Below are positions 14,064-39,039 of a stretch of 64,000 nucleotides of DNA, piece after piece. The position numbers and the translations under genes are program-made. The notes under the pieces were generated by a model. It did not search any database. It saw only the letters and a program-made list of their open reading frames with translations, and was not told the origin of the DNA. The stretch's first letter is position 1. The number at the start of each line of letters is the position of its first letter. The stretch spans positions 133,198,385 to 133,262,384 of the forward strand of contig NC_079487.1 in the NCBI RefSeq assembly GCF_020520425.1, read 5' to 3'. Source of the DNA: Spinacia oleracea. Lineage: Eukaryota > Streptophyta > Magnoliopsida > Caryophyllales > Amaranthaceae.

Positions 14064-14455
14064 TAGGCCTGGTTATCGGGCGGGGCGGGTCAGGGTCGGT
14101 GCGGGTCAAAAGAGGGTCGGGTATTGAAAGGGTCATTTTTAGAGGGTCGATAATGGGCGGGTCAAAAGCGGGTCGCGGGTCAATAGCGGGTCATTATTGG
14201 GCGGGTCAATAAACGAGCAATGAAAAATGAAAAACAAAAGAGCCATGTGCAAGTACAAGTAAATACGAAGCTATGCATGTAATTTTTTGTATCATTACTA
14301 TTTTTATTTTCAAAATAATTGTAGTATAAGTTTGACCCTATAATGACACTGTCCAATAAAGGCCCTGTCCAATAAGAGCTCTGCCCAATAAAAGCCCTAT
14401 TAACTTGACCCTAACCCTATATCCATTGGACTACCCTGTCCAATAACCAGGTCTA
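14064..14455. mobile_element. Non-autonomous hAT element (392 bp) at the stop codon of F-box gene 1
   Basis: The ends taggcctggttat and ataaccaggtcta are inverted repeats with one mismatch. The flanks carry a perfect 8-bp duplication, cctaccat (14056-14063 and 14456-14463). The interior begins with GGGTC-rich simple repeats. The minus-strand TAG of its right end (14453-14455) now serves as the stop codon of the F-box gene. Confidence 0.9.
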
Positions 14456-15002
14456 CCTACCATTAGTATATTTCTTAGCAATGACAACCTTTGCCTTCTG
14501 TGAGGCCCTTGGTAATCCTGATAACTGTGAAATGAACTCTTTTTCCTCTGTTGAATAAAGTTTATCCTTGTTGTTGCAGACAATAAGTAATTTCTCCAAG
14601 ACGACTGCACTTTTGAGCACAAATTTCATCAGCTCAAGTAGAGCTTTACAAGGTTTCTCATATCCACGAATTATGACAGTTTTGAGTCGCCGCATCACAA
14701 TTGGAGAAGAAAGCTCATACAGAAGCATATTGCAGTCACACAAAAAATCCTGACAGTAGTTACATGCAAAATTCTCTGTTATATGAAAGGTATTGGCCAA
14801 CTTAAGTATTAGCTAGACAAACTTGATATACATATAGACTTACCACATCTGCAAATATAATAAGTTTCTTCAAGCGCCAAGAATTTCTCAGCAATCTACA
14901 AATGCCTAGCAGACAGCTTCCATGGCTTACAGGCCTCAAAGCTAAATCAGTCCATGGAGTTTCTCGAAAAGTCAGTTTCTCACTACCACATTTTCCCAGT
15001 TC
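14453..15002 (-). CDS. F-box/LRR/FBD gene 1, exons 2 and 3 (FBD domain)
   Basis: These are the distal exons of the gene whose exon 1 is at 38143-39039. Exon 2 is 14844-15002 (159 bp; acceptor TACTAG, donor GTAAGT). Exon 3 is 14453-14749 (acceptor ACTGTCAG) and encodes the FBD domain: LKTVIIRGYEKP, FVLKSAVVLEKLLIVC and LPRASQKAKVVI. Both exons start in phase 0, as in the intact paralogue at 49512-51420, which has the same exon lengths except for three extra codons here. The hAT element at 14064-14455 supplies the TAG stop; the pre-insertion sequence would have read TAA at the same codon. With exon 1 the gene encodes 450 residues. FBD-containing F-box proteins are presumed substrate receptors of SCF ubiquitin ligases; the substrate is unknown. 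Confidence 0.8.
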
Positions 15003-15538
15003 CTAGTAAGAAGGAAAGAACATTAGAATTATTCCACTTTAGTCAAATAATAGTATGAAAAAACTATAGCAATGAACACCCAACAACAGACAGATAGAAA
15101 GCACTACTTAGATGTTGAGGTTAACTTGCTTAAATCTATCTGAGAATACAACAGAGTAATTGATATCGATAATGAAACTTGGTAAAACATTGCTCTATTC
15201 GACTACATGACGTATGGTATCCTACATAAAATGCTTTACCACAAACCATGTAATAAGACACTGAGAGTCACATAGTATCAGCTGCTTCATCCCTCAAAAT
15301 GTAGCGAATTTCAGCTACTAGAAAGTGAAGAGCAATACTGTAAATTAACTACACTACCTTCTCCCTAATATCCAGAAATAAAACCTATGATTCACCCACA
15401 GTTTAACACCTTTTACAAACAAGTTGATTCACCCAGAGTAACTATCTTCTTCTTTTTTTTTTGAGAAAACAGAGAAACATCTTTTACCATACACTCTTCC
15501 ACAGTTTCACCCGCCTGAGATAAATTACATTTACTAAG

Positions 15539-16044
15539 TGTACGGGATCATATCCAGAGAGGGCAGAACATCAATGACAGAGCAAACCCTGACACCCAGG
15601 GCACACCCAAGTCAAAGAAAGACTCTAAACCCCAAGCCAAGTATATGCAGCCCAGGCAGATCAAACCTCCCCAGATCACGTGTAAAGACACAGAGCAGAG
15701 CTAGGCAAAGCTGCATCAGTCCAAGAAGGGACCTGCAGGCTAAACGACAACGACAAGGAATAAAGTACATCGCCGTCATACACGTGGCGGCATCTGAGTA
15801 GGCCAAAGTACAGAATAGTACGCCTATAAATAGCACCCACATCATTCATGATGGGACAGATTCTTACACACGGTACTTGCTCCACCTTCTCTCTATATCC
15901 CCTCTCTAAAGACTTCTTACCTATTTGCTGACTTAGGCATCGGAGGGGGTTTCCTCGGTTAAACCCCCGAGGTTAGCTCACGTTTGCTCTGCTTGACAGG
16001 GCCAAGGCACTCCGGAACGTCCTCCCAGTTCCACACCCGGAACA
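15539..16044 (+). repeat. 5' LTR of the gypsy element
   Basis: 506 bp, TG...CA. It contains a TATA-like cctataaatagc at about 15826. It is a near-identical copy of 37388-37893. Confidence 0.95.
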
Positions 16045-16046
16045 AG

Positions 16047-16064
16047 TGGCGCTAGAAGGAGGGG
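16047..16064 (+). other. Probable primer binding site of the gypsy element
   Basis: TGGCGCTAGAAGGAGG follows the 5' LTR after two bases, the usual position and TGG start for a tRNA primer site. I could not assign the tRNA. Confidence 0.6.
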
Positions 16065-16106
16065 ACTTCCCAGACCTTGCCTCTAAAAGACCTACCCTCC
16101 CACAAA

Positions 16107-19100
16107 ATGACTGAGTCAAGCGAACCGATAATCCAGCAGATAGAACCACCCACCTCTAGAAACAACCAGAGAATCACAAACGTACCTTTGTTCGGCATGC
16201 CTCAGAGTCTTGGTCCGCCAAGAGAGACACCACAACCCAGAGCTATGGCAACCCCCAGCCAGGGCCAGGGCATCCCAGTTCCAACCAGTGCCTCACTAGC
16301 ACGGTTGGGGGCACAGTTCTCACCCGACCAGATGCGCACAGCCATAGAAGTCCTGACCTTCCTTACCCAGACAACACCGCAAGCCCAGGTCGTGAGGACA
16401 GCCCCAGAGGTTGAGGTTGAGCAGAGGAGGAAACGTCCCAGACCCCAAAACAGTCCGAACGTCTGGAGGAGGAATCTGCAGCAGGAGATGGAAGGGGCTG
16501 ACAGCCAGGAATATGAGGCAGAAAGTATCACACCTAGCAGAGCTCAACCCAGAGCGAGAACCGAACAAGCACCCAGCCAGAGGCACCACTCCGGGTCAGG
16601 TATGCCAAATCCCACCCGAGCAATAGTTAAACCTGATAATTCCCCTTTCTGTGATGAGATACTCTCGGAAAAAATGGAAAAGATAAAAATGCCCACCTGC
16701 AAATATTCCGGAAAGTCAGACCCAACGAATCACCTCTCTGCCTTTGGAGGACACATGATGCTATATACCAACACAGACTCTATGTGGTGTAAGGTTTTCC
16801 CTTCCACTCTGGAGGGGATGGCACAGAGCTGGTTCGGTAAAATACCCAAGGGCACCATAACCTCTTTCCGGCAGTTAGCCATTTTGTTTCGCACCCAATA
16901 TGTGGCAAACATTGCCAGAGAAAGGATGACAGGGGAGCTGATGTCAGTCATCCAAGGACCTCAGGAATCTCTGAGGGAGTACATATCCAGATTCAATATG
17001 GAGGCATCGAATATACCCAAGTTACAGCAAGAGGTAGCAGTCCTGGCGATGATGACTGGTCTGCGGGATGGAGAATTCAAGAGTTATCTGGGCAGAAAGT
17101 CATTCACAACCCTGGCAGAGGTACTGGGGAAGGCAAATGAATTCATAAAAAGTGAAGAGATTGGCAGAGCAACCTCACGACGATATGTAGCAAGTGAGAA
17201 CAATTACGGTAGTCAGAGCAGAAAAGAGCCATACAAAAAAGAATACCCAGACAAAAGGGAAAATCAGCAGCCCAGAAAAGATTGGCACGGGCAGGTCAGA
17301 GGAAGGGGTAGTGAGTTCAAAACTGAAAAGCGAGGCAAATTCAACGAATACACTCCTCTAGTTGCATCCAGAACCCAGATTTTTGCTATCAGCAAGGAGG
17401 ATGAGAAATGGCAGAGACCACCGAAAATGTACAACAAATACAGGGACACGAAGAAGTACTGTGATTTTCACAAGGATCATGGTCATCTCACAGAGGAATG
17501 CACTCACCTGAAAGATAACATTGAGGACTTGATCCGAAGGGGGTACCTAACACAATTTAAGGCAAAGAGCTCATACAGCAGGACCTACGAAAACAGGGAT
17601 GATGAGGGTCGATTTGATAACAGGAAGACAGAGCAAAAACAGAACCACCCAGCAGAGCAGAAGAGGTCGAATGATATACTGGTCATAACAGGAGGACCAG
17701 TCTACGCTGGTACTACAGCCAGCGGTGCTAAGGCCAGTGTGAACGAATTCAAACACCAGGTTAATTACCACAACTCAGGAAAATGGCCTGCCCCTCCAAA
17801 AATCCCACAGTGCACTTTTACAGAAGATGATTGCAAGGGCATAATTTATCCCCATGATGACCCAATGGTGTTAGCTCTGGATGTGGCTAACAGAAAAGTC
17901 CATCGAATCCTGATAGACGGAGGAAGCTCTGCAAACATTCTATTCTGGCCAGCTTTCCAAGAGCTGCAGATTGAAGAGAAGCACGTAAAGCCAGTTAGCT
18001 ATCCAGTAATTGGTTTCACAGGAGCAACGGTGATACCAGAAGGAATAGTTAGCTTACCTGTCCAAATTGGGCAGGGGAAAGATATCAAGGATGTCATGGT
18101 TGATTTCATGATAGTCAAGGTACCCGCAGCGTACAATGCCATTCTGGGCAGACCATTCATTCATGATGCAGGAGCAGTGGTGTCTACTTATCACCTCACC
18201 ATGATGTACACAACGAATGATAACAGATCAGCTAAGGTCAGGGGAAACCAAGAGCAGGCTAAGAGATGCTACCACACAGCCCTGAAACAACCACCCAGAC
18301 CCCCGCCCCTGGCAGAGGCAGACATTCCCTTGTCCAGAAAGAGAAAGAGAGCAGAGCGTAAAAAAGACGCACTACTGGACATGGAGAATTTTGAGCATCG
18401 TGAAGAAGGACTGTTAAAACCAGCCCCAGCAGAAGAAACAGAGGAGATAGAGCTGGAAGAAGGAGTAGAGGACAGAACAGTCCGAATTGGCACAGATATA
18501 GACCTTTCCCTGAGGGTAAATATCATTGATCTGTTGCGAGAGCACGCAGACATATTTGCCTTCTCTGCTGACGAAATGCCAGGGATTGACCCCAACGTCA
18601 TGGTCCACAGGTTGAATGTTAACAGAGAAGTCAGACCGGTAAAACAGAAGAAGAGAACTTTTTCGACAGAGAAGAATGTAGCCATCCAGGAAGAGATCAG
18701 CAAACTGTTAGCAGCCAAATTCATAGAAGAGTGTGACTACCCGGAATGGTTGGCTAATGTCGTGATGGTAAAGAAAGCAAATGGTCAATGGAGGATGTGC
18801 GTAGACTTTACAGACCTAAACAGGGCTTGTCCAAAGGATTGTTACCCGCTGCCTAGAATAGACCAACTGGTGGATTCCACCAGCGGGCATGCCCTGCTGA
18901 GTTTCATGGATGCCTTTTCGGGCTATCACCAGATCAGTTTGTTAGAATCAGACCGGAAAAAAGCCGCCTTCATCACAGACGCCGGAGTTTACAACTACAG
19001 GGCTATGCCATTTGGCCTAAAGAACGCAGGGGCCACATACCAGAAACTGGTAGACAAAATATTTGCAGGACAAAAAGGCCGAAACGTGGAGGTGTATGTA

Positions 19101-21632
19101 GATGATTCCATAGTCAAGAGCAAAAAGGAGGGTGATCACATTAAGGATCTGAAGGAAACTTTTGCAACATTGAGGCAATTTGGTATGAAATTAAACCCAA
19201 AAAAATGCGTGTTCGGTGTTAAGTCTGGAAAATTTTTGGGATTCCTGGTCAGTCAAAGAGGAATTGATGCCAACCCAGAAAAAGTAGAGGCCATACTCAA
19301 CCTACCAGAACCAAGAAACATACGAGACATCCAGAGGTTGACTGGGAAAATGGCAGCACTCACCAGGTTCATCAGCAAGTCCGCAGACAAGTCTCTCCCC
19401 TTTTTCCAGGTGCTAAAGGGAAACAAAACATTTAAGTGGGGAGAGGAGCAAGAGAAAGCATTCAAGGAGGTGAAGAACCATTTGAAAAGCCTCCCAACCA
19501 TAGCCAGACCAGAAGTGGGGGACATATTACAGCTATACATCTCTGCCTCCAAGAAAACTGTAGCAGCAGCTCTGGTAGTCGAGAAGGATAAAATCCAGCA
19601 GCCAGTCTACTTTGTCAGCCACATCCTCAACCCAGCAGAACAGAGGTACCCCCTGATTGAAAAAATGGCCTTCGCCATCATGATAGCTGCCAGGAAATTG
19701 AAACCATACTTTGACGCGCATAAAGTGCAAGTGTTGACTAATCAGCCTTTAGAGAAGTCATTGCAGAGGCTAGATACCTCTGGTAGACTCCTGAAATGGG
19801 CAGTGGAACTCTCAGAATATGACATCGAGTACAAACCCAGAACCGCCATAAAAGCACAGGCACTGGCAGATTTCATTGCAGAGGCATCATACGAGGAGGA
19901 GGAAGAACCATTGGGGACTTGGCAGATCTCAGTAGACGGCTCCGCCGCAGTCACAGGGTCGGGCGCAGGTATCATAATGGTGTCACCAGAAGGCAACATT
20001 TTCGAATATGCTATAAAATTTAAATTCAAAGCTTCAAATAACGAAGCAGAGTATGAGGCGGCAATCGCAGGAATCCAGATGTGCAAAGCAGCAGATGCTA
20101 AGAAAATAGTGCTCAAAACCGATTCACAGCTGGTGGCCAGCCAATATAGAGGCGAATATGAAGCCAGAGAACCGTCTATGCAGAGGTACTTGGCCTTGAT
20201 GAAAGAAGCAGTAGCGCAGCTAGAAAGCTTTGAGATTCAACTGGTTCCCAGGGCAGAAAACAGTCAAGCAGACGCCCTATCTAAGTTAGCAAGTTCGACA
20301 TTACAGGACTTGGAAAGAACAGTGATGGTAGAGGTCCAGGAAGAAAAGAGCATTGACAAAAAGCCTGTAGTCAACTTCATTGACACTGAGCCACAGTGGT
20401 ATGACAGTATAGTCTCATACAAGCTGGGAAGGGGCCTTCCCACGGCAGAGCAAGAGCAGAAAAAAGTAAAACGAAATGAGCATTGGTTCGTCATTTACCA
20501 GGGTAAACTGTACAAGAAATCATTTTCGTTGCCACTGCTGAGATGCATATCAGCAGAGGAGTCGCAACGAGTCATTGAAGAAATACACGAGGGAATATGT
20601 GGAAACCACATAGGCGGCAGGACATTAGCCTTGAAAGCTCTCAGAGCAGGATATTATTGGCCAACCATGGTAAGTGACTCTCAAGCATATGTTAAAAAAA
20701 GCGACAAGTGCCAGAAATTCGCCTCAGTGATCAACCAACCCTCTAATGACTTACAGCCAATCATCAACCCCATACCATTCGCCCAGTGGGGAATGGATAT
20801 TCTGGGACCATTCACAGCAGCAAGCGGGGGAAGAAAATTTCTGATCGTGGCAGTTGACTATTTTACTAAGTGGATCGAGGCAGAGCCCACTAAAAGCATA
20901 ACAGCCAAACGGATGAAGGATTTCATCTGGAAGAACATTGTGACAAGGTTCGGCATCCCAGAAAGTTTGGTCTTCGATCATGGAACACAGTTCGACTGCA
21001 CTCCTATAAAGGATTATTGCGCTGAACTAAGAATAAAATTCGCATACGCATCTGTGTGCCATCCCCAGAGCAATGGTCAGGCAGAGGCAGCAAATAAACA
21101 AATCCTGGGAGCACTGCGAAAGAAGGTAGAAGATTTTAAGGGTGCATGGGCCGACCTTATTCCAGAGATCTTATGGTCCAACAGGACCACTGAAAAAGAA
21201 GCAACAGGAGAAAGTCCTTACAAACTAGCTTTTGGGGCTGAGGCGGTCCTGCCTGTCGAAGTGGGTCTACCTAGCTTTAGAGTGCAGTACTATGAGGAAG
21301 GCACTAATGAGCAGCGTATGAGGGAAGCGTTAGATCTCTTACCAGAAGTCAGGCTGCAAGCAGAACTCAAGTTGGCAGCAAACAAAGAAAAAATGAGCAG
21401 GGCATACAACAAGAGGGTAAAGCACAGACCTATGCAAGTGGGGGATCTGGTCCTCAGAAGAACAGCTGCCACTGGAAAGGGAAAGGCAGAAGGAAAATTC
21501 TCTGCCAATTGGGAAGGACCTTACCAGATCACAAAAGAGGTAGCCCCAGGCTCATACCATCTAATGACGATGGAAGGAAGAGAATTGAAGAATAGCTGGA
21601 ATGCCAACATGCTAAAGAAATACTATGTATAG
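16107..21632 (+). CDS. Ty3/gypsy gag-pol polyprotein (1841 aa), Tat-type with dual RNase H
   Basis: The frame is intact from ATG 16107 (MTESSEP) to the TAG at 21632. Approximate domain order: gag, residues 195-360 (KYSGKSDPTNHLSAF); a zinc-knuckle-like CDFHKDHGHLTEEC at about 452; aspartic protease LIDGGSSANIL at about 602; reverse transcriptase 840-1050 with FMDAFSGYHQI and the catalytic YVDD at 19095-19106; first RNase H 1110-1260; second, archaeal-type RNase H 1271-1398 (ISVDGSAA, NNEAEYEA, TDSQL, ENSQADALSKLA); integrase with its His/Cys domain (HIGGRTLALKALRAGYYWP, then CxxC partly altered to DKCQKFA) and catalytic core (GMDILGPF, FDHGTQF, NGQAEAANK). There is no chromodomain. Protease carries DGG where DTG or DSG is usual, and the last zinc-site position looks changed (KSDKCQKFA). 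The missing Cys could reduce integrase activity. Confidence 0.95.
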   Translation: MTESSEPIIQQIEPPTSRNNQRITNVPLFGMPQSLGPPRETPQPRAMATPSQGQGIPVPTSASLARLGAQFSPDQMRTAIEVLTFLTQTTPQAQVVRTAPEVEVEQRRKRPRPQNSPNVWRRNLQQEMEGADSQEYEAESITPSRAQPRARTEQAPSQRHHSGSGMPNPTRAIVKPDNSPFCDEILSEKMEKIKMPTCKYSGKSDPTNHLSAFGGHMMLYTNTDSMWCKVFPSTLEGMAQSWFGKIPKGTITSFRQLAILFRTQYVANIARERMTGELMSVIQGPQESLREYISRFNMEASNIPKLQQEVAVLAMMTGLRDGEFKSYLGRKSFTTLAEVLGKANEFIKSEEIGRATSRRYVASENNYGSQSRKEPYKKEYPDKRENQQPRKDWHGQVRGRGSEFKTEKRGKFNEYTPLVASRTQIFAISKEDEKWQRPPKMYNKYRDTKKYCDFHKDHGHLTEECTHLKDNIEDLIRRGYLTQFKAKSSYSRTYENRDDEGRFDNRKTEQKQNHPAEQKRSNDILVITGGPVYAGTTASGAKASVNEFKHQVNYHNSGKWPAPPKIPQCTFTEDDCKGIIYPHDDPMVLALDVANRKVHRILIDGGSSANILFWPAFQELQIEEKHVKPVSYPVIGFTGATVIPEGIVSLPVQIGQGKDIKDVMVDFMIVKVPAAYNAILGRPFIHDAGAVVSTYHLTMMYTTNDNRSAKVRGNQEQAKRCYHTALKQPPRPPPLAEADIPLSRKRKRAERKKDALLDMENFEHREEGLLKPAPAEETEEIELEEGVEDRTVRIGTDIDLSLRVNIIDLLREHADIFAFSADEMPGIDPNVMVHRLNVNREVRPVKQKKRTFSTEKNVAIQEEISKLLAAKFIEECDYPEWLANVVMVKKANGQWRMCVDFTDLNRACPKDCYPLPRIDQLVDSTSGHALLSFMDAFSGYHQISLLESDRKKAAFITDAGVYNYRAMPFGLKNAGATYQKLVDKIFAGQKGRNVEVYVDDSIVKSKKEGDHIKDLKETFATLRQFGMKLNPKKCVFGVKSGKFLGFLVSQRGIDANPEKVEAILNLPEPRNIRDIQRLTGKMAALTRFISKSADKSLPFFQVLKGNKTFKWGEEQEKAFKEVKNHLKSLPTIARPEVGDILQLYISASKKTVAAALVVEKDKIQQPVYFVSHILNPAEQRYPLIEKMAFAIMIAARKLKPYFDAHKVQVLTNQPLEKSLQRLDTSGRLLKWAVELSEYDIEYKPRTAIKAQALADFIAEASYEEEEEPLGTWQISVDGSAAVTGSGAGIIMVSPEGNIFEYAIKFKFKASNNEAEYEAAIAGIQMCKAADAKKIVLKTDSQLVASQYRGEYEAREPSMQRYLALMKEAVAQLESFEIQLVPRAENSQADALSKLASSTLQDLERTVMVEVQEEKSIDKKPVVNFIDTEPQWYDSIVSYKLGRGLPTAEQEQKKVKRNEHWFVIYQGKLYKKSFSLPLLRCISAEESQRVIEEIHEGICGNHIGGRTLALKALRAGYYWPTMVSDSQAYVKKSDKCQKFASVINQPSNDLQPIINPIPFAQWGMDILGPFTAASGGRKFLIVAVDYFTKWIEAEPTKSITAKRMKDFIWKNIVTRFGIPESLVFDHGTQFDCTPIKDYCAELRIKFAYASVCHPQSNGQAEAANKQILGALRKKVEDFKGAWADLIPEILWSNRTTEKEATGESPYKLAFGAEAVLPVEVGLPSFRVQYYEEGTNEQRMREALDLLPEVRLQAELKLAANKEKMSRAYNKRVKHRPMQVGDLVLRRTAATGKGKAEGKFSANWEGPYQITKEVAPGSYHLMTMEGRELKNSWNANMLKKYYV

Positions 21633-21903
21633 ACACAAGAAGTTAATACTATAACAAGGCAATAGAAGCCAGAGTAGTTCTTCACTTTTGTAATTTTCCA
21701 CGCTTACAAGCATAATGAAAATTGGCCCAGCTACCTTCGGTAAGAAGAAAGTGCGTCAGGTCTCTTGGAAAAGTAAAAGGTGAACGGCTAAAACTCGTAA
21801 AAAAAAAAAAAGGGGGGGGAAACGCTACCCACGAATAACTTGGTCTGATCAACCAAGTTATTGGGTAAGTTTTTTCTCAACGAGATTTAAGCAAAAACCT
21901 TTC

Positions 21904-22445
21904 GAGCTTTGTCCTGGCCAAAGCCAGGTCAATTCAATAATACGCAGCCAAAGTAGGCTGGAATAAATATGAAGATACTTTTTGAGCTTTGTCCTGGCCA
22001 AAGCCAGGACAATTCAATAATACGCAGCCAAAGTAGGCTGGAATAAATATGAAGATACTTTCTGAGCTTTGTCCTGGCCAAAGCCAGGACAATTCAATAA
22101 TACGCAGCCAAAGTAGGCTGGAATAAATATGAAAATACCTTTTGAGCTTTGTCCTGGCCAAAGCCAGGACAATTCAATCATACTCAGCCCAAAGTAGGCT
22201 GAAGTAAACACAAAAACACTTCTCGAGTTTTGTCCTGGCCAAAGCCAGGACAATTCAATAAGGCACAGCCAAAATAGACTGAAGCAAATGCGAAAACACT
22301 TCTCGGTTTTTGTCCCGGCCAAAGCCAGGACAACTCAACAATACACAGTCCAAAACAGGTCGAGGCGAATATAGAAATACTTTTTGAATTCGGCCCTGGC
22401 CAAAGCCAGGACAATCAAGCATGCAAAGTGGGTCAAATGGAAATA
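21904..22445. repeat. 80-bp tandem repeat array, seven copies, each with a perfect hairpin
   Basis: Copies begin at about 21904, 21984, 22064, 22144, 22225, 22305 and 22385. Most contain GTCCTGGCCAAAGCCAGGAC, an 8-bp stem with a 4-base loop, followed by aattcaataatacgcagcc and aaagtaggctg. The first four copies are nearly identical and the last three diverge. The array lies between the pol stop and the 3' end of the antisense gene. Confidence 0.92.
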
Positions 22446-25116: not shown

Positions 25117-25121
25117 ATAAC

Positions 25122-26463
25122 TGTTAGGTTATGATACATATGACATTTACATAGATCATGCGGAAACAACCATTAACCCAGGAAACATATTATTTACACA
25201 TAATCATATAGCATAATTAGATGCATACTCTTTGTTGCGTGCCTTCCCTAGCTGCGCCCGAACCGAACAAGAACAAGTCTTTTAGGACTCCAAGTGTCGT
25301 CCCTCCGTAGAAAGTCCACAGCACGTCCGGATCCGCCTTAAGATTGACCAACTAGAATCGCCCTTAAGGTACTCAGAAAATTCGGCACTTTTGGGGCAAG
25401 ATGGGTGTTTGAATTTTCTCTCAAAAACTCACTTTTGAATACTTTGAAACTTGTGTATAAATTATGACCCCTAGGCCTTTATTTATAGAGTTATGGGAAA
25501 AGGAATCGTAATCCTAGTAGGATGCGAATTAATTGGAATTAGAATTCTACATGAATTCTACTTAATCAATTTATCCAATAGGAATAGACATTTAATCATA
25601 CACTGACTCTTGCAGATTCAGGAATCTCGCATGAGCTCAAACTCACACACACACGGCAGCCACAAGGGCTGCCCACGCATGCGAGCAGCAGCCCACGCAG
25701 CGCGGCCCACGCATGCGCGGCCTTGTGCGCGCTGGGCTGTGGCGTGCGTGCTTGCTGGGCGATGGCCTGGCTTCGTGCTGGGCCTTCGTCCGGCAGGCCT
25801 CGTCCGATGCTAATTCGTACGATACGCTTCCGATTAAATTTCCATTTCCGGAATCTATTTCCGATACGAACAATATTTAATATTTCCGATTCCGGAATTA
25901 ATTTCCGTTTCGAACAAATATTTAATATTTCCGTTTCCGGAATTATTTTCCGATTCCGGTAATATTTCCGATTCTGACAATATTTCCGTTTCCGGTAATA
26001 TTTCCGATTCTGGTAATATTTCCATTTTCCAACAATATTTTCCGATACGTACCATGTTTCCGTTTCCGGCAACATCTACGACTTGGGTAATATTCATATT
26101 TCCGATACGATCCATATTTCCGTTTCCGGCAATATCATCGTTTCCGGAGTATTCATTTCTTGCCTGTGACGATCTTAGCTCCCACTGAAACCAAGATCCG
26201 TCGGTTCCGAATATTCATAGATGGAGTATTTAATGCTATTAAATACTTGATCCGTTTACGTACTATTTGTGTGACCCTACGGGTTCAGTCAAGAGTAAGC
26301 TGTGGATTAATATCATTAATTCCACTTGAACTGAAGCGGCCTCTAGCTAGGCATTCAGCTCACTTGATCTCACTGAATTATTAACTTGTTAATTAATACT
26401 GAACCGCATTTATTAGACTTTAACATAGAATGCATACTTGGACCAAGGGCATTATTTCCTTCA
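25122..26463 (-). repeat. 3' LTR of the nested copia element
   Basis: 1342 bp. On the element strand it begins TGAAGGAAATAATGCCC and ends CCTAACA. It contains a GC-rich island (about 25660-25810) and a tttccg-rich short-repeat zone (about 25845-26155). Apparent frames in it are repeat artefacts. Confidence 0.95.
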
Positions 26464-26476
26464 GTCTCCCACTTGT
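26464..26476 (-). other. Polypurine tract of the nested copia element
   Basis: ACAAGTGGGAGAC on the minus strand directly precedes the 3' LTR. Confidence 0.8.
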
Positions 26477-27327: not shown

Positions 27328-30300
27328 TCAAAGCCATTCTCCAATATGCTTGATTCCCATAGCTGCAGTGTGCGAGTTGTGCTTCGCTTGCGGCAGAGGT
27401 TTAGTTAATGGATCTGATATGTTGTCATCAGTTCCAATTTTGCTTATCTCGACTTCTTTTCTTTCAACGAACTCTCGTAGAAGGTGAAATCTACGAAGTA
27501 CATGCTTGACTATCTGGTGGTGTCTAGGCTCTTTTGCCTGTGCAATAGCTCCGTTATTATCACAATACAGGGCTATTGGTCCTTTAATGGAGGGGACTAC
27601 ACCAAGTTCTCCTATGAACTTCCTTAGCCATATAGCTTCCTTTGCTGCTTCATGTGCAGCAATGTACTCCGCTTCAGTTGTAGAATCCGCAATGGTGCTT
27701 TGCTTAGCACTTTTCCAGCTTACTGCTCCTCCGTTGAGGCAGAAGACAAACCCAGACTGTGATCTGAAATCATCTTTGTCGGTTTGGAAACTTGCGTCCG
27801 TATAGCCTTTAACAATTAATTCATCATCTCCACCATAGACCAGGAAGTCATCTTTGTGCCTTTTTAGGTACTTCAGAATGTTCTTGGCAGCAGTCCAATG
27901 CGCCTCTCCTGGGTCTGACTGGTATCTGCTCGTAGCACTGAGTGCGTACGCAACATCCGGGCGTGTACATATCATAGCATACATTATTGAACCAATCAAT
28001 GATGCATATGGAATCCCATTCATTCGTCTACGCTCATCAAGTGTTTTTGGGCACTGAGTCTTGCTTAGAGTCATTCCATGAGACATGGGTAGGTAGCCTC
28101 GCTTGGAGTCCGCCATCTTGAACCTATCAAGCACCTTATTGATATAAGTGCTTTGACTAAGTCCAATCATCTTTTTAGATCTATCTCTGTAAATCTTGAT
28201 GCCCAATATGTACTGTGCTTCCCCTAGATCCTTCATCGAAAAACATTTCCCAAGCCAAATCTTGACAGAGTTCAACATAGGAATGTCATTTCCGATAAGC
28301 AATATGTCGTCGACATATAATACTAGGAAAGCAATTTTGCTCCCACTGACCTTCTTGTATACACAAGATTCGTCCGCGTTCTTGATGAAACCAAAGTCAC
28401 TGACTGCTTCATCAAAACGTATATTCCAGCTCCTGGATGCCTGCTTCAATCCGTAGATTGACTTCTTTAGCTTGCATACCTTTTTAGCATTCTTTGGATC
28501 CTCAAAACCTTCAGGCTGTGTCATAAACACAGTTTATGTTAAAACGCCGTTTAAGAAAGCAGTTTTGACATCCATCTGCCATATTTCGTAATCGTAATAT
28601 GCAGCGATTGCTAACATTATTCGAATAGACTTTAGCATTGCAACTGGTGAAAAGGTTTCATCGTAATCCACACCGTGGACTTGCCTGTAACCTTTTGCAA
28701 CCAATCTAGCTTTGAAAACTTCAAGTTTCCCATCCTTGTCCTTTTTCAGTTTGAAAACCCATTTGCTTCCAATGGCTTGGTAGCCATCTGGCAAATCGAC
28801 CAAATCCCATACTTGGTTTTCAGACATGGAGTCTAATTCAGATTGCATGGCTTCTTGCCACTGCTTGGAGCTAGGGCTCGTCATAGCTTGCTTGTAAGTC
28901 GCAGGTTCATCACTTTCAAGTAATAGAACGTCATAGCTCTCGTTCGTCAAAATACCTAAGTACCTTTCCGGTTGAGATCTATATCTTTGCGATCTACGCG
29001 GGGTAACATTTCTAGATTGACCATGATTCTCACCAGATTCTTCTAAAGATCTCTGAGTTTCATCCTGAATGTCATCTTGAGCATTCTCTAGAGTTTGTTG
29101 TTCGACTCGAATTTCTTCGAGGTCTACTTTTCTCCCACTTGTCATTTTGGAAATGTGATCTTTCTCCAAAAAGACACCATCTCGAGCAACAAACACTTTG
29201 TTCTCAGATGTATTGTAGAAGTAATACCCCTTTGTTTCCTTTGGATAGCCCACAAGGATACATTTGTCAGATTTTGGATGAAGTTTGTCTGAAATTAATC
29301 GTTTGACGTATACTTCACATCCCCAAATCTTAAGAAAAGACACATTTGGAGGCTTTCCAAACCATAATTCGTATGGAGTCTTTTCGACAGCTTTAGACGG
29401 AGCTCTATTTATAGTGAGTGCAGCTGTATTTAGTGCATGTCCCCAAAATTCTAATGGAAGTTCGGCCTGACCCATCATTGACCTGACCATGTCTAGCAAG
29501 GTTCTGTTCCTCCGTTCTGACACACCGTTCCATTGTGGTGTTCCAGGAGGAGTCAATTCTGATAGAATTCCACATTCTTTCAGATGGTCATCAAATTCAT
29601 AGCTCAGATATTCACCGCCTCTATCAGACCGCAGTGCCTTGATCTTCTTGCCTAATTGATTCTCTACTTCACTCTGAAATTCCTTGAATTTGTCAAAGGA
29701 TTCAGACTTATGCTTCATTAGGTAGACATAACCATACCTACTGAAGTCATCAGTGAAAGTGATAAAGTAGCTGAAACCACCTCTAGCATTTGTACTCATT
29801 GGTCCACATACATCTGTATGGATTAAACCCAATAGTTCATTTGCTCTTTCTCCAACTTTAGAGAAAGGTTGCTTTGTCATTTTGCCAAGTAAACATGATT
29901 CGCATTTACCATAATCCTCTAAGTCAAATGGTTCTAGAATTCCTTCCCTTTGAAGTCTTTCTAAGCGTTTCAAGTTTATATGGCCTAATCGACAATGCCA
30001 CAGATAGGTGAGATCTGAATCATCCTTTTTGGCCTTTTTGGTATTTATGTTATATACTTGTTTGTCGTGATCTAATAAATAAAGTCCATTGACTAATCTA
30101 GCAGATCCATAAAACATCTCTTTAAAATAAAACGAACAACTATTGTCTTTTATTATAAAGGAAAATCCCTTAGCATCTAAGCAAGAAACTGAAATGATGT
30201 TTTTAGTAAGACTTGGAACATGGAAACATTCTTCCAGTTCCAAAACTAGCCCGGAGGGCAACGACAAATAGTAAGTTCCTACGGCTAATGCAGCAATCCG

Positions 30301-31314
30301 TGCTCCATTTCCCACTCGTAGGTCGACTTCTCCCTTGCTTAACTTTCTACTTCTTCTTAGTCCCTGTGGATTGGAACATAAGTGTGAGCCACAACCTGTA
30401 TCTAATACCCAAGAAGTTGAATTAGCAAGTATACAGTCTATAACGAAAATACCTGAAGATGGAACGACTGTTCCGTTCTTCTGATCTTCCTTTAGCTTTG
30501 GACATTCTCTTTTGTAATGGCCTATTCCATCACAATAAAGACAGCTTGATGTGGACTTGTCCTGCTTTGATTTAGCATTGCCCTTGGACTTTCCACCTTT
30601 CTTGAATGGTCTCTTTCTAGCCTTGAGTAAATCCTTGGCTTCACAGTCCAGTACTATTTCAGCCTTTCTGACAAGGTGAATAAATTCTGCAACTGTTTCT
30701 TCTCTTGGTTCACTTAGGTATTGTTGCTTGAAGCGACCAAACCCACTGTGTAGTGAATTGAGCAAGACAGAGACTGCCATCCTTTCGCTTATTGGTGTTC
30801 CTAGTAGACTTAGGCGATCAAAATATGAACACATAAGATCCACATGGAACCTCAGTGGGACGCCTACCCTCTGTTTAGTGCGAAGGAGCTGAACATGTGT
30901 TTCTTGGACCTCCATCCTATAACACCTGTTGGGAGAACTAACCTTTAGTCCAGACATTGATTCAATCAACTCATGGACGTTCAGGTCCCTGTCCTCCGTA
31001 CTTCCACGACAGATATCCCTCAGATTCTTGATGAGCGTAAAAGGTTCATAGGCTACAAACCTTCTAGCCCAATCATCAGGGATATTGTTCAGCATGAGAC
31101 TCATAACCTTTTTGAGATCCGCATCCCAGGCGTAAAATCTCTCAGGGGTCATGTCTCTGGCATAGTAGCTTGGCATGGGATGTGATAGTACATACTCAAG
31201 TCCATTGAGTTTGACTATTTCAACTAGCTTAGCTTCCCATTCAAGAAAATTTGTCAGGTTCAGCTTGACCATAAGCTCAGAACCCATGATGATGTTTTGA
31301 TTGTTGTTTGCCAT
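27328..31314 (-). pseudogene. Ty1/copia gag-pol polyprotein with one in-frame stop
   Basis: The frame begins at ATG 31314 (MANNNQN) and continues in one phase to 27328, except for a TAA at 28534-28536 inside reverse transcriptase. Domains in order: UBN2-type gag; zinc knuckle CLYCDGIGHYKREC; protease WVLDTGCGSHLC; GAG-pre-integrase LWHCRLGHINLKRLERL; integrase core (DVCGPMSTNARGG, FTDDFSRYGYVY, LRSDRGGEYLS, PPGTPQWNGVSERRNRTL); reverse transcriptase (IGSKWVFKLKKDKDGK, DVKTAFLNG, YVDD at 28306-28317); RNase H (YTDASFQTDKDD, STTEAEYIA, YCDNNGAIAQAKEP). As it stands, translation would end early in reverse transcriptase, giving Gag, protease and integrase but no active polymerase from this copy. 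It could be mobilised in trans. Confidence 0.93.
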
Positions 31315-34184
31315 ATTAAAAACTACAATTGAAAAGAATAAACAAATAAATAACCATTCACAGTTTCTCTTAATAAACTTAAATTCTAGCATTCATGCAT
31401 AATTCAATGTTTATTAAGCATTTTATTCAAGTTATGTGTTCCGGCAGGTGTGAATAAAATGATTCCAAGATCCTAAAATCATTGAAGAACTAAGCACAGT
31501 TTGTCGACTTAATCCTAGAACATCTTAGGTAAGCAAAAGCCTTTTGCTAATAGTCTAGAAACTATTCTTGGTTGATAGGTACGTCTAAGAACTTATTAGG
31601 TAAACCTATCGAATTTGCCACGACATAAAAGGACTCCTTACTTATATCGTTGAGTTTCACCAAAACTAACATGTACTCACAATTATTTGTGTACCTTGCC
31701 CCTTTAGGACCAATAAGTAACACCTCGCTGAGCGAAAACTATTACTAGATTGATGTAAAGGATATCCAAGCAAGTGTATATTTTGGCATGGCACCTTTTA
31801 ACTCAATTTTTAAGTTTGGAACTTAAGGCTCTTACTATGTTGGTTAGATTTTAAGTGAACTAAAATCCTTAATCATACAACATAATCAAGCTTTTGATCT
31901 CATGCATTTTAAGACATATTTAAAGCAATAAATAACTTAAAACATGCATAAGATATTTGTGATCTAGTATGGCCCGACTTCATCTTGAAGCTTTGACTTC
32001 AAAGTCCGTCTTGAAAATCTCCGTGGGAGGCACCATTTTCTTCAAATAGGATAAGTTATAACTAATTACAACTATTTGATGGTACGCAGACCATATTTGA
32101 ATTGAAAAACAACTTTGGTACTTTAGACCAATTACATTCAAATTAATGGTACGCAGACCATATTTTCTATCCTATTTGGGCCATACTAGTCACTTCATAA
32201 CCTGCAAAACAGTACATATACAATATATACCATTCACCCATTCATTATCATGAATGGCCCACATAGCTGGTTAGTTAAACACATTATGCATCACGTAAAC
32301 ATTTGCAGCAATTAATCAAGGGCACCAATAATCTACCAATTATTCAGTCCTTATTAATTCTAATCGAGTTGTTTTAACCTTAAGGATTTGTAGACCTAAT
32401 CAAGAGTTTATGACTAAAAAGCACTCCCACTCAAACCAATAAATTCATATGCTTTACTAATTTTAAACATAAAATTGTATTTCTAGTCTAACCGGAAACA
32501 TACAAATTTAATTAAAATTTAAAGCTCATATAAATTTATAATTGAATCCAAAAAATTTAATTTAATTTCAGTCGCATTTAAATTAATTCATGATTTTAAT
32601 TTTAGTAAAATAATTAGAATAAATTCCATTTATTATAATTATAATATTCAAAATTAAAATCCAAGAAATTAATTCAAATTATTAATTTTAAAATTAATTA
32701 AAATTACGTGAACTGAAATTTTCAAATTAAACATTCAAAAACGATCTAATCGAAACGCAAACACCCTACGCGTTGCACGCCCATGGGCCGTACGCACACA
32801 GCCATTGCTGGCCATGTGCGCGCAGCCCATGCGCTCGTCGCATAGCTGCTGCTGTCCTATCCGCAAGCCTCCGCACAGCGCCCACCGCACGCGAGCTATC
32901 GCTCGCAGCGCGCGCGCGTTACCGCGCTCGCTGGTGCGCGAGATCGCTCGCTGGTGCGCGCGAGCCATCGCTCGCTGGGGCGCTGCATCGCTCGCTGGTG
33001 CGCGCGAGCCATCGCTCGCTGGTGCGCGCGAGCCATCGCTCGCTGGCGCGCGAGATCGCTCGCTGCGCGCGCGCGAGCCATCGCTCGCTGGTGCGCGACA
33101 TCGCTCGCTGGGCGGGCGACGTCGCGCGCTGTGCGCGCGAGTGATGCTGTGCGCAGCGCTCGTGGCACGCGAGCTTGCGCTCGCTGCGCACGAGGTTGCG
33201 CGCTGTTGTGCGAGGCAGCGCGCGCTGTGGCGCAGCTCGCTTGCTGCCCACACGCGACTGCCTTGGCTCGCCTCTCGCCCATGCCCATCCGTTCATTGCT
33301 CGTGGCACACGACACAAGGCAGGGCTGCTGCCTTGTGCTCGTGCACTATGCCCTTGCTCATTGCATTCGTGCCGCACGGGCGACGAGCTCCCTTGCTCGT
33401 CGTCGCATGCCCGCATTATACAACACCCCTTAAGGGTAACACGAAGCGTCCATTGCTTCGTGCGTGCAAGTTATTTGAACGAATCGCATAAAAATTTAAA
33501 ATTTATATTTAAAATTAATGACAAATTAATAAATATTATTAATTTCATAATTTTAGGGCGAAAAATCGAAAATTTATTATCCAATTGATTTCCGATTGAT
33601 ATGGATTCAAGTCTAGGTCATAAAAATTTAAAATTTATCGTAAATTTACAATTTTTATGGTGGTTTTTAATCATAGGTTTCTAATTAAATTACAATTAAT
33701 TATGAAAATCAAATTAATTCTAAATTATTCTAATTTTCAACAAATTAATCATAATTACAAATTAGATTGCATAATTAACAAGACTAGGCATTCAAACTTG
33801 TTAAACATATGCAGTAGGTCAATCAAAAATTCAAGATTTATCAACAGGAATCGCAAATATTTAATTTAACATCTTAAATTTACGAAATTTTGCATCCGAA
33901 AAACTAAAACCTTCGAAAAGTCATAGTTAGGCTTCGAATTTGAGAATTCTGGGTTCGGCAGAAAAATACTATTTTTGTCAAAATTTTAGAATGCCTTTTA
34001 CATGCGGAATTGACACAAAAATCACTCAATTCGGATGAGTAATGAAGAAACTGCCGAAAAACTGCGTACATATAAACGCAATTTGCAATTAATTAACAAT
34101 TACGAAAATTAATCACCCCTTTTAATTCTTGCAAATTTGTAATATTTAACCATGTTCATGCAATTTAGATTATGAAAATAATAA
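31315..34184 (-). other. Long leader of the nested copia element, no gene
   Basis: About 2.9 kb between the primer site and the gag ATG. It is AT-rich apart from a strongly GC-rich repeat block at about 32750-33410. A segment containing ggtacgcagaccatatt occurs twice (about 32080 and 32149). No coding frame is supported. Confidence 0.7.
32860..33240. repeat. GC-rich minisatellite, units of about 24 bp
   Basis: Units built on gctggtgcgcgcgagccatc with gctc ends repeat with small length changes. Both strands show long but repetitive frames (for example ASDGSRAP repeats), which reflect the repeat rather than a gene. Confidence 0.85.
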
Positions 34185-34200
34185 GGGGCTCGTGATACCA
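34185..34200 (-). other. Primer binding site of the nested copia element (initiator Met tRNA type)
   Basis: TGGTATCACGAGCCCC on the minus strand lies one base after the 5' LTR and resembles the complement of the initiator methionine tRNA 3' end. Confidence 0.8.
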
Positions 34201-34201
34201 C

Positions 34202-35543
34202 TGTTAGGTTATGATACATATGACATTTACATAGATCATGCGGAAACAACCATTAACCCAGGAAACATATTATTTACACATAATCATATAGCATAATTAG
34301 ATGCATACTCTTTGTTGCGTGCCTTCCCTAGCTGCGCCCGAACCGAACAAGAACAAGTCTTTTAGGACTCCAAGTGTCGTCCCTCCGTAGAAAGTCCACA
34401 GCACGTCCGGATCCGCCTTAAGATTGACCAACTAGAATCGCCCTTAAGGTACTCAGAAAATTCGGCACTTTTGGGGCAAGATGGGTGTTTGAATTTTCTC
34501 TCAAAAACTCACTTTTGAATACTTTGAAACTTGTGTATAAATTATGACCCCTAGGCCTTTATTTATAGAGTTATGGGAAAAGGAATCGTAATCCTAGTAG
34601 GATGCGAATTAATTGGAATTAGAATTCTACATGAATTCTACTTAATCAATTTATCCAATAGGAATAGACATTTAATCATACACTGACTCTTGCAGATTCA
34701 GGAATCTCGCATGAGCTCAAACTCACACACACACGGCAGCCACAAGGGCTGCCCACGCATGCGAGCAGCAGCCCACGCAGCGCGGCCCACGCATGCGCGG
34801 CCTTGTGCGCGCTGGGCTGTGGCGTGCGTGCTTGCTGGGCGATGGCCTGGCTTCGTGCTGGGCCTTCGTCCGGCAGGCCTCGTCCGATGCTAATTCGTAC
34901 GATACGCTTCCGATTAAATTTCCATTTCCGGAATCTATTTCCGATACGAACAATATTTAATATTTCCGATTCCGGAATTAATTTCCGTTTCGAACAAATA
35001 TTTAATATTTCCGTTTCCGGAATTATTTTCCGATTCCGGTAATATTTCCGATTCTGACAATATTTCCGTTTCCGGTAATATTTCCGATTCTGGTAATATT
35101 TCCATTTTCCAACAATATTTTCCGATACGTACCATGTTTCCGTTTCCGGCAACATCTACGACTTGGGTAATATTCATATTTCCGATACGATCCATATTTC
35201 CGTTTCCGGCAATATCATCGTTTCCGGAGTATTCATTTCTTGCCTGTGACGATCTTAGCTCCCACTGAAACCAAGATCCGTCGGTTCCGAATATTCATAG
35301 ATGGAGTATTTAATGCTATTAAATACTTGATCCGTTTACGTACTATTTGTGTGACCCTACGGGTTCAGTCAAGAGTAAGCTGTGGATTAATATCATTAAT
35401 TCCACTTGAACTGAAGCGGCCTCTAGCTAGGCATTCAGCTCACTTGATCTCACTGAATTATTAACTTGTTAATTAATACTGAACCGCATTTATTAGACTT
35501 TAACATAGAATGCATACTTGGACCAAGGGCATTATTTCCTTCA
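34202..35543 (-). repeat. 5' LTR of the nested copia element
   Basis: 1342 bp, apparently identical to 25122-26463. The promoter of the element is expected here. Confidence 0.95.
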
Positions 35544-36290
35544 ATAACCATCAGGCAGACCATAAAACTCTTTACCAACAACAGCGTGATTCTCTTTTCG
35601 CGCATCATCAGTCCACTTAGTGTTCAGCTTCGCGTGTAAGGGACCAAAAGCAGAGGCTTCAGAAAGGTAGGGTGTCGAATCCCCAGGAACGACATTCTCT
35701 TCCACGTAGTTGGGAAAAGGCCTCATCTCATTCACCTGGGCCAAAATATCCTCCCCACCAGCTTGCCCACCCACGGAAATAGTGACATGGTTGGCCATCA
35801 TAGAACGAAAAATAGATTCCCGGCGTCTGTAAACACGCAAAGACAGTTCAGACTCATTAGCTCCAGCAAGCTGTTCAAAATCATCTAACCAGGCCTGTTC
35901 AGACAGAGGCTGAACATCAAGCCCTGGGGGGACATTGGACGGCGGATTTATCCTAACTATCCGCGACAGATAATCATGGCGCATCTCCCTAAGAGTTTGA
36001 CGTAAAGATGGGGACAGGTCGGCCGTAGAGTCAGGACACCCAGAATCACCCGCATCTGGGGGGGGCGGCTCCTCCCCAGAGGATTCATCGTCAGAGGACA
36101 AAGGAATCACAACAGGCACAGAGCGAGACAAAACATCATGCATTGATTTGGTTCTGTGCTCAGCAGAAGCCCGAGTCTCCTCATCAGAAGATAAAGAGAC
36201 AGAGGAGGGAGAAGAGGTAACATAAGAAGCAGAGGAAACGCTTTTAGCGCCCGAGCTACTAAGGTTTTGGCTATCAGATGCATCAGACAT
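35544..36290 (-). CDS. Antisense gene of the Tat element, exon 1 proximal part
   Basis: ATG 36290 (MSDASDSQ) opens 249 codons ending in the copia target duplication; the same frame resumes at 25116. The start is Ser/Glu/Asp-rich and probably disordered (residues 1-90). It is followed by a more ordered stretch (LRQTLREMRHDYLSRIVRI, LSEQAWLDDFEQLAG). Upstream on the minus strand a GTAAGT at about 36520 suggests a spliced leader starting near 36900, which would make this gene's promoter independent of the LTRs. With exons at 22735-25116 the uninterrupted reading frame would be 968 residues. No function is assigned. Confidence 0.7.
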
Positions 36291-37034
36291 TATGAACTGA
36301 AAGTCACAGGACAAGGGAAAAGGGCACAAAAGTAAATAACAAAAAAAAAAAAAAAAAAAAAAAGAAGGGGAAAAGCTACTCAACAATGGCGGAAGTTCAA
36401 AAACGACTTAACAATGGCGAAAAATACCAGAAATTGAAACCCCAAAGACACTAAAATCAAGCGAACAACAAACAAAGGTCATGCAAAAGAATCGAAAAAA
36501 CAGCAAAAAATAGAAACTTACCGGAAAAAGAAGATAGAGTTAGAATCAAAAGAAACACAGCAACGAAAACCTCCCTTCGCGAAATGGAAAACGAAAACAC
36601 GAGGGGCAAATGACCACCACAAGCAACAAGAACACTAGCAATCGACCGGAAAAGTGACGGCAAACACAAAAATGTGCGAAAGATCGAATTTTGAGAAGAC
36701 TTCTGCAAATAACAAGCAACGGAAAATGAGAGCACTCGAGTGTTTTTCTCAGAAACACCAAGGAGAGAGAAGGTAAGAAATGAAGATGAAGAAGGAAGGA
36801 AGTTACCTTTTCTCTTTAAAAGCCAAAGAAGAACGGCTGGGAAGCGAGCAACGATACAGTTGCACAAGCAGGATGAAGGACACGTGTAGACCTCAATACA
36901 ACCAAACTTAATCATGATGAAGGACGGTCCAGATTGAGCGACGATTCCAATCGACTCTTCGGATGGGCAACGCGTGGCACGAGGAAAAACCGGTTAAAAT
37001 CCCCAAAGATTTCTTACCATTCAGAAAGCCCGCC

Positions 37035-37078
<44 letters not shown>

Positions 37079-37159
37079 GATCTACTCTGGAGGGACTGGT
37101 AGGAAGAAAATACACAGCCAGGACAAAAGCAAAAAACCAACAAAACAAGCATTGCAGCC
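36291..37159. other. Internal gypsy region: leader of the antisense gene and poly(A) runs
   Basis: The segment holds A runs at about 36343-36363 and 37034-37076. A minus-strand frame at 36457-36915 is hydrophobic and low in complexity; I read it as untranslated leader. No other gene is seen. Confidence 0.5.
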
Positions 37160-37393
37160 CCAAAGAGTCCAGATCAAGGACAGAAGAGCAGACCTGACTT
37201 AAAAGGTCAGCTCTACTCTTGAGGGACTAGTTGTACGGGGTCATATCCAGATCAAGGACAGAAGAGCAGACCTGACTTAAAAGGTCAGCTCTACTCTTGA
37301 GGGACTAGTTGTACGGGGTCATATCCAGATCAAGGACAGAAGAGCAGACCTGACTTAAAAGGTCAGCTCTACTCTTGAGGGACTAGTTGTACG
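37160..37393 (+). repeat. 78-bp repeat, three copies, carrying PPT and U3-start sequence
   Basis: Each unit runs from atccagatcaaggacagaag to gagggactagt and is followed by tgtacgggg. The tgtacggg motif falls at 37232, 37310 and 37388, and only the last is the true LTR start. Each unit also contains gacctgacttaaaaggtc, a short inverted repeat. Confidence 0.9.
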
Positions 37394-37893
37394 GGATCAT
37401 ATCCAGAGAGGGCAGAACATCAATGACAGAGCAAACCCTGACACCCAGGGCACACCCAAGTCAAAGAAAGACTCTAAACCCCAAGCCAAGTATATGCAGC
37501 CCAGGCAGATCAAACCTCCCCAGATCACGTGTAAAGACACAGAGCAGAGCTAGGCAAAGCTGCATCAGTCCAAGAAGGGACCTGCAGGCTAAACGACAAC
37601 GACAAGGAATAAAGTACATCGCCGTCATACACGTGGCGGCATCTGAGTAGGCCAAAGTACAGAATAGTACGCCTATAAATAGCACCCACATCATTCATGA
37701 TGGGACAGATTCTTACACACGGTACTTGCTCCACCTTCTCTCTATATTCCCTCTCTAAAGACTTCTTACCTATTTGCTGACTTAGGCATCGGAGGGGGTT
37801 TCCTCGGTTAAACCCCCGAGGTTAGCTCACGTTTGCTCTGCTTGACAGGGCCAAGGCACTCCGGAACGTCCTCCCAGTTCCACACCCGGAACA
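37388..37893 (+). repeat. 3' LTR of the gypsy element
   Basis: 506 bp, differing from the 5' LTR at one position that I noticed. It is followed by the duplication ctaag. Confidence 0.95.
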
Positions 37894-38142
37894 CTAAGTT
37901 ACTAACATTCAAGATCGAATAACGATATAATTCAAACAACTAGATTTTTGTATCCTGCAAAAGATTATATACGATTGTAATTCAATAAATAATATAGGTA
38001 ACAGATATCTTTTCATCCTAACAGCGCGGTTAACTGTACAAGACACCAAGTTGGAAGTATGAGGCAATGAGGTACAAGGAAGTAGAAATAAACCAAAAGT
38101 ACAGGGTTCTTCACAAGATAGAACAAGGAAGCAGAAACTCAC

Positions 38143-39039
38143 CAAATAAGCTTTATCTCCCAATTGGAAAATCTTAGCATTTAGAAACTTCTCGAGCAAT
38201 ATTTTAAAATAATCAAAATTGTCGCGAGACAAACAACACTCGTTGATTTTTGCTTCACGAACAGATGAAACATCAATCACATCCAGAAGTTCCAAACATA
38301 CTTCATTGATATGCAATATCTTCAAGTTAGGGCAATTAAGCGAAAAACGTTCGTGGTAACGACTCCTATGCGAGCCATCCGGCATTTTTGTTTTCAAGCA
38401 AAGATCAAGCTCCAACTTCTCAATGCTCGGTGCATCAAAATCCAGGGCCTGTAACTCAAAAGGATACTTAATAACCAACTCCTGTAAACAAGGGATTCCA
38501 GATAACAGAGTTTTGATCCTCTCATTACTCTCACGCACAAAAGTAAGTTCCAATTTCTTAAGTGAACCCATATGAATCTGAGTACAATGAGTGATGCCGA
38601 GGAACACATTAGTAAGATGAAGCGAAACAATGAATTGATTTCTCCAAACAATACCAGGGACAGAAAAACTATAGTACCCATCATAATAATGAATACCCAA
38701 TACCTTGGTCTTTTTTTTTAAACGAAAAGTAATCAACTTCATCAACTCTTCTTCTAAAGGTCCAAATTTCTCCCTAATCACAACCTTATCAATTGTGGGA
38801 CTTTTGTGGTACTTCATCACCTTGTTGATAAACCGACCACCCAGTTTGAAATCATATTCAATATTATGAAGCAATGTCCAGAGTTTACCAAATCGGCGAA
38901 GTAAGACAGTTCTAACAGCATCTCTAATTGGCAAAAAAGATAGAATGTGGACAAGTAATTCATCTGGCAATTCACTTAACCTATCAATGCAATTGCCCTG
39001 TTTATCACAAATTCCATGCTTCTTTGACCTGAAATTCAT
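38143..39039 (-). CDS. F-box/LRR/FBD gene 1, exon 1 (F-box and leucine-rich region)
   Basis: ATG 39039 (MNFRSKKHG) opens 299 codons in phase 0, ending before GTGAGT at 38142. The F-box is at about residues 17-60 (DRLSELPDELLVHILSFLP, RDAVRTVLLRRFGKLW). Leucine-rich repeats follow (SLHLTNVFLGITH, LKKLELTFV, CLQELVIKYPFELQALDF, SIEKLELDLCL, CPNLKILHINEVCLELL). The paralogue at 50515-51420 has the same layout. Exons 2 and 3 lie at 14453-15002, beyond the gypsy element. All splice sites and phases match the paralogue, so I treat this as one gene of 450 residues with a 23,140-bp intron rather than a fragment. Predicted role: substrate receptor of an SCF E3 ligase. Whether the long intron is spliced efficiently cannot be seen. 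Confidence 0.82.

Follow-up and report, generated by a model that had tools for sequence, protein, structure and literature searches.

In grapevine, introns of 3-100 kb hold complete, very young long terminal repeat (LTR) retrotransposons; these large introns are supported by expressed sequence tags (ESTs) and, among the genes compared there, are mostly 5' introns (PMC3058033). The same study describes an annotation error in which a gene with very long introns is broken up into several annotated genes. In rice and Arabidopsis, retrotransposons within heterochromatic introns, promoter-proximal ones in the case of rice, carry a risk of premature polyadenylation, as in IBM2-dependent genes and RPP7 (PMC7145194, PMC4417168). 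Here we analyze a stretch of 64,000 nucleotides from Spinacia oleracea (hereafter the window), located at C1:133198385-133262384, in which an F-box/FBD gene, gene A, is divided by a 23-kb intron 1 that contains a Ty1/copia element nested within a Ty3/gypsy element. The locus shares with the grapevine introns its complete and very young LTR elements and, being intron 1, its position, and with the rice and Arabidopsis cases an intronic retrotransposon and the attendant risk of premature polyadenylation. It differs in its nesting, and in that the grapevine introns are EST-supported and the rice and Arabidopsis cases come with RNA and methylation data, whereas the splicing of gene A is predicted from sequence. 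In addition, intragenic transposable elements in Arabidopsis are mostly short (PMC7145194, PMC4417168), whereas the insert in gene A is 22 kb long and young. Searches of the open-access literature returned a general pseudogene survey but no published F-box gene with an intron of nested retrotransposons. The case is a tidy though unremarkable instance of a process already known; its unexpected detail is a stop codon derived from a miniature inverted-repeat transposable element (MITE).

Gene A is encoded on the minus strand in three exons. Exon 1 (38143-39039, 897 bp) provides the start codon, an F-box (residues 21-44) and an LRR-like region; exon 2 (14844-15002) contributes 159 bp; and exon 3 (14453-14749, 297 bp) provides the FBD domain and a TAG stop codon at 14455-14453, which is the end of the MITE. 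When concatenated, the exons form a coding sequence of 1353 bp, i.e., 450 codons and TAG, with no internal stop. The coordinates given in the original prediction, and its claim of an intact 450-residue frame equal to that of the paralogue, are therefore correct. Intron 1 (15003-38142, minus strand) is 23,140 bp long, with a GTGAGT donor and an ACTAG acceptor, and intron 2 is bounded by GTAAGT and CAG; the tandem paralogue, B, reads identically at these sites. Paralogue B (49512-51420, minus strand) also consists of 450 codons and a stop, in exons at 51420-50515 (906 bp), 50040-49882 (159 bp) and 49799-49512 (288 bp), with an intron 1 of 474 bp. The exons of A had been said to match those of B; they do so in order, phase and splice sites, but not in length, as exons 1 and 3 each differ by 9 bp. 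The two proteins have 347 identical residues over 446 aligned codons (77.8%), and the genes diverge by 10.6% in exon 1, 10.7% in exon 2 and 11.9% in exon 3, a near-equality that fits both halves of A being one gene copy. The C-terminal FBD domain scores above its Pfam cut-off of 22 bits in both genes (A, 28.7 bits on exon 3 and 26.2 on the spliced protein; B, 31.9). The F-box match is marginal in A and B alike: the cut-off of 20.5 bits is exceeded by exon 1 of A alone (21.1 bits), while both spliced proteins fall slightly below it (A, 19.8; B, 19.9).

The outer element (15539-37893, plus strand) is bounded by LTRs of 506 bp each (15539-16044 and 37388-37893), which differ at a single position. 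With the LTR ends placed at TGTACGGG and CCGGAACA, the element is flanked by a perfect 5-bp target duplication, CTAAG, at 15534-15538 and 37894-37898. Joining the host flanks with one copy of this duplication yields an intron of 780 bp, which aligns throughout with the 785-bp intron 1 of a related gene, C, in which the insertion site is empty; it aligns with B as well. That is, the alignment along the intron of gene C indicates that intron 1 of A was ordinary before the insertion, at about 780 bp. In two further relatives, D and F, intron 1 measures 763 and 711 bp, and the 474-bp intron of B is, judging by these comparisons, a shortened form. The original prediction that a gypsy element landed in intron 1 is borne out by the CTAAG duplication and the joined flanks; until then the host was an ordinary F-box/FBD gene of three exons. 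The flanks had also been held to match the paralogue's 474-bp intron; they do align with B, and with C, but B's intron is shortened and that of C is closer in length.

As had also been predicted, a second retrotransposon is nested within the first. This is a Ty1/copia element of 10,422 bp at 25122-35543, on the minus strand and thus sense to gene A, with an ATAAC duplication at 25117-25121 and 35544-35548. Its 1342-bp LTRs (25122-26463 and 34202-35543) are identical (0/1342 differences), and its pol frame contains an in-frame stop at 28534-28536, inside the reverse transcriptase, which the original prediction did not include. Elsewhere in the genome, the gypsy LTR has at least 40 full-length matches at 98-100% identity (its own two included), taken as the best 40 of 364 candidates, which indicates that the family was recently active. 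Grouped by span regardless of strand, the matches listed form 16 LTR pairs, of which 12 span 11.75-11.96 kb and four, including that of the window, 21.5-22.4 kb. These four long pairs suggested that gypsy and copia might spread jointly as a 22-kb unit. We rejected this possibility because, in six stretches drawn from the three other long pairs, the copia site is empty, with its 5 bp present once, in four (L060, L061, L062 and L064). Two of the four, L061 and L062, fall within one LTR pair, so that pair contains more than one gypsy copy. A fifth stretch, L059, had no match to any query piece, and neither it nor the sixth shows the copia site. The sixth, L063 (C2:110504800-110507800), holds a copy of the copia elsewhere in a long gypsy pair, 99.9% identical over 1000 internal bases; given this copy inside another long gypsy pair, both families look recently active, nesting repeatedly. 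The nesting, together with the empty sites in other gypsy copies, makes the copia the younger of the two, although the LTR counts by themselves fail to separate their ages. The gypsy element very recently entered an intron 1 of about 780 bp, and the copia then entered the gypsy.

To place this event in time, we considered the one difference between the 506-bp gypsy LTRs, which translates to roughly 0.001 substitutions per site on each line after the insertion. If substitutions accumulate at 7e-9 or 1.3e-8 per site per year, the age of the gypsy insertion comes to 0.08-0.14 million years, with an upper limit of 0.4-0.8 million years. The synonymous divergence between A and B is about 0.14, and A's own branch, counted from its divergence from B, has a length of 0.055 per site; the LTR divergence thus places the insertion within the last 2% or so of that branch, or about 10% at the upper bound. 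Since the insertion, about 1.3 substitutions, and 0.06 nonsense substitutions, would be expected in the 1353-bp coding sequence (upper 95% bounds, 7.5 and 0.32). In simulations of substitutions only, the frame stays open without selection with a probability of 0.95-0.97 after one substitution and of 0.67-0.77 after seven, a number close to the upper 95% bound since insertion. That is, the insertion is so recent that an intact coding sequence is expected even if unselected; a gene that was dead at the insertion would usually still appear intact. The original prediction had given the intact frame weight as a sign of a still-working gene. With so few substitutions expected, it carries no such weight, and we conclude that intactness is no evidence of function.

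The present 3' end of the coding sequence was supplied by a different insertion, which is absent from the original prediction. It is a MITE of 392 bp (14064-14455, no strand assigned), recognized by its small size, its terminal inverted repeats, with ends TAGGCCTGGTTAT and TAGACCTGGTTAT, and an 8-bp duplication, CCTACCAT, at 14056-14063 and 14456-14463. A duplication of 13 bp had been considered and was replaced by that of 8 bp after comparison with four other copies; when the ends are set at TAGG and TCTA, the 8-bp duplications are perfect in all five copies examined, its own included. Among the 40 copies listed from the genome, 38 cover the full 387-base query, again counting the window's own. 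A target duplication of 8 bp indicates hAT, and on the basis of this length we take the MITE to be hAT-like. Read on the gene strand, the MITE begins with TAG in frame, which is the present stop of gene A, whereas the empty site reads AGG TAA. Insertion of the MITE thus leaves the protein unchanged, and the sequence that follows the stop is now MITE.

As regards the present state of gene A, we favor, with moderate confidence, a model in which the recent nested insertion would cause termination within the intron and hence a truncated protein, alongside some full-length splicing and antisense-driven silencing. Specifically, RNA polymerase II (Pol II), coming from upstream of exon 1, would first reach the gypsy 3' LTR, which lies in antisense orientation, and next the copia, which lies in sense. 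Many transcripts would then end within intron 1, most likely in the sense-oriented copia. All 10 sense AATAAA motifs of intron 1 lie inside the copia, by a raw count with no chance comparison; in plants, AATAAA is a weak polyadenylation signal. More than 10% of rice genes carry heterochromatic introns, and polyadenylation in these introns occurs prematurely when OsIBM2 is lost (PMC7145194). Because the frame of exon 1 closes at 37909, within the old intron and before the element is reached, the truncated F-box protein would have at most 376 residues and lack the FBD domain. A minority of transcripts might be spliced over the 23 kb to give full-length mRNA. The gypsy LTR carries a TATA-like box on the plus strand, so antisense transcription of exon 1 might start from its outward-pointing 3' copy, and this may attract silencing. 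On this model, gene A is probably diminished or being lost, rather than normally active.

Several observations weigh against this model. The splice sites of gene A are intact, and young intronic LTR elements, namely new ONSEN insertions, are frequently removed in full by splicing (PMC12112155). Furthermore, the 148 coding differences between A and B include no stop, where 4.4-6.5 would be expected without constraint (P 0.0005-0.0085; with half of the differences, as on one line, P 0.03-0.10), and the length of each of the four coding gaps is divisible by three. Gene A also does not appear more relaxed than B, in that the ratios of nonsynonymous to synonymous substitution rates (dN/dS) of the two branches are indistinguishable (P 0.42). 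The lack of stops and the in-frame gaps imply that, up to the insertion, both reading frames had been maintained.

The strength of that earlier constraint can be judged from dN/dS, whose calculation for the gene pair the original prediction had proposed as a check. The value obtained is 0.79 (four methods, 0.79-0.97), with a bootstrap range of 0.54-1.20, and it concerns the time before the insertion only. Gene C was used to polarize the differences over 439 codons, with 13 differences left unassigned and with gene E, whose frame is broken, and fragment G excluded; the latter, an exon 1 fragment on C4, entered the second tree only. The branch of A then carries 39 nonsynonymous and 16 synonymous substitutions (dN/dS 0.66; P 0.11 for neutrality), and that of B 59 and 17 (dN/dS 0.94; P 0.46); neither value is distinguishable from neutral, and such weak constraint counts in favor of the model above. 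Against D and F, the dN/dS of A and B is 0.47-0.57, and exon divergence is about equal to that of the introns and flanks. A fair reading of these sequence comparisons is that the A and B proteins were kept open but loosely constrained, in the time before the insertion. Open frames under loose constraint have been described for lineage-specific F-box genes evolving by genomic drift (PMC3030570), with which A and B share a tandem cluster, relaxed dN/dS and frames without stops.

Other explanations for the state of gene A were weighed against the same evidence. An intact frame and intact splice sites are what would be seen if the gene works normally, with Pol II crossing the intron, aided by a complex of the IBM2/EDM2/AIPP1 type, and with splicing of exon 1 to exon 2 to encode 450 residues. 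Precedents exist in grapevine, for which 2,697 introns of 3-100 kb with EST support and 591 complete LTR elements are reported (PMC3058033), and in Arabidopsis, where transcribed genes hold intact elements of some 5 kb in their introns (PMC4417168). At such an age, however, intactness is uninformative, the constraint was weak already, and the inserted 22 kb include a copia in sense orientation; in grapevine, moreover, genes with large introns are richer in EST singletons, which was taken as lower expression (PMC3058033). We consider normal function unlikely. It is likewise rather improbable that the locus is already silent, with neither half transcribed as a result of spreading methylation or a weak promoter. 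Upstream, A resembles B in patches (of 220 aligned sites, 30% differ, in an alignment that has visibly slipped), so the promoter of gene A appears uncertain, and a MITE-like inverted repeat lies upstream at 39353-39870. Lineage-specific F-box genes are, in addition, often weakly expressed or not expressed (PMC3030570). Nevertheless, the start codon, frame and splice sites of A have not decayed.

The two halves of gene A might also derive from different copies, through recombination between elements or misassembly, given that several paralogues lie within about 0.25 Mb on the same contig and that near-identical gypsy copies occur elsewhere. We rejected this explanation as extremely improbable, because the CTAAG duplications match at the outer ends, the intron flanks meet against gene C with neither overlap nor large gap, and the exons on both sides are equally diverged from B. 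Finally, it is conceivable, though distinctly speculative, that the insertions have been co-opted as a switch, whereby the balance between copia polyadenylation and splicing over 23 kb would be set epigenetically to give the truncated or the full protein, with the MITE providing the stop and the 3' untranslated region. If true, the locus would resemble RPP7, observed no later than a few hundred thousand years after the arrangement arose.

With a fresh nested double insertion in A, none in the tandem gene B, and further paralogues that show the pre-insertion intron, the locus is a clean and datable case. It therefore lends itself well to a natural experiment on the speed with which silencing or truncation of a plant gene follows a complete 22-kb insertion. 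A trap is exposed as well, in that an open frame across a huge intron filled with transposable elements tells little about function if a dead gene would need longer to decay than the insertion has existed. The stop codon provided by the MITE end is a small curiosity that bears on how transposon ends become parts of genes.

Regarding its lineage, the outer element appears Retand-like by its shared traits. A survey of Retand elements lists antisense frames, Transposase_28 and tandem arrays among their characteristics (PMC11963269). The gag-pol frame of the element in gene A (16056-21632, plus strand) is antisense to the gene and has its domains in gypsy order, with gag, RVT_1, RNase H and Integrase_H2C2 above cut-off; the rve match, at 24.4 bits, is under its cut-off of 32.6, and no protease was matched within the pieces scanned. 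As in the Retand lineage, a long stretch separates pol from the 3' LTR (about 5.3 kb after subtraction of the copia), and between them there are frames on the minus strand, i.e., antisense to gag-pol, one of which retains a trace of Transposase_28 (16.9 bits, E 0.0074; Pfam cut-off 26.2). Tandem arrays with units of 80 and 78 bp are present in this region as well, at 21893-22415 and 37168-37407. Unlike in that lineage (PMC11963269), the Transposase_28 match is sub-threshold and the antisense frames are divided by the copia.

Gene A belongs to a small F-box/FBD cluster. C, D and F are three-exon relatives on the same contig, about 0.2 Mb distant, with exon borders placed by similarity. At their C-termini (L039, L040 and gene C), C, D and F finish with FA and a stop, while A and B extend several residues further; the old stop seems, from these sequences, to have been lost in the ancestor of A and B. 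Fragment G (L041 1795-3205, minus strand; C4:13204001-13209000) is 86% identical to B over 115 residues of exon 1 and then passes into unrelated sequence. Copies lacking the intron would be a sign of past splicing; among 34 matches at E 1e-10, from the best 94 of 177 candidates, none crosses the exon 1-exon 2 junction, the exception being exon 2 of A, B and C only, preceded by intron bases. In the MITE-like repeat upstream of gene A, the two inverted arms are each some 100 bp long (39356-39457 and 39767-39870, 86.5%); this repeat is related to another at 52822-53249.

An Rfam search of the whole window gave no matches. Elsewhere in the window lies a small-protein family of unknown kind. Its five open frames, at 3530-4072, 5957-6382, 12526-13044 and 56606-57106 on the plus strand and 8131-8700 on the minus strand, are 31-52% identical to the first, and partial copies lie on the plus strand at 42567-42953, 47821-48237 and 41302-41454. 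No solved structure matched the family at E up to 1, and Pfam gave stray weak matches only, each in one of the five members. Fragments of this family adjoin an inverted pair of 113 bp, 95.6% identical, at 41389-41501 and 42439-42551. Lastly, an intronless cytochrome P450 frame is located at 59700-61202 on the plus strand (Pfam p450, E 5.1e-63).

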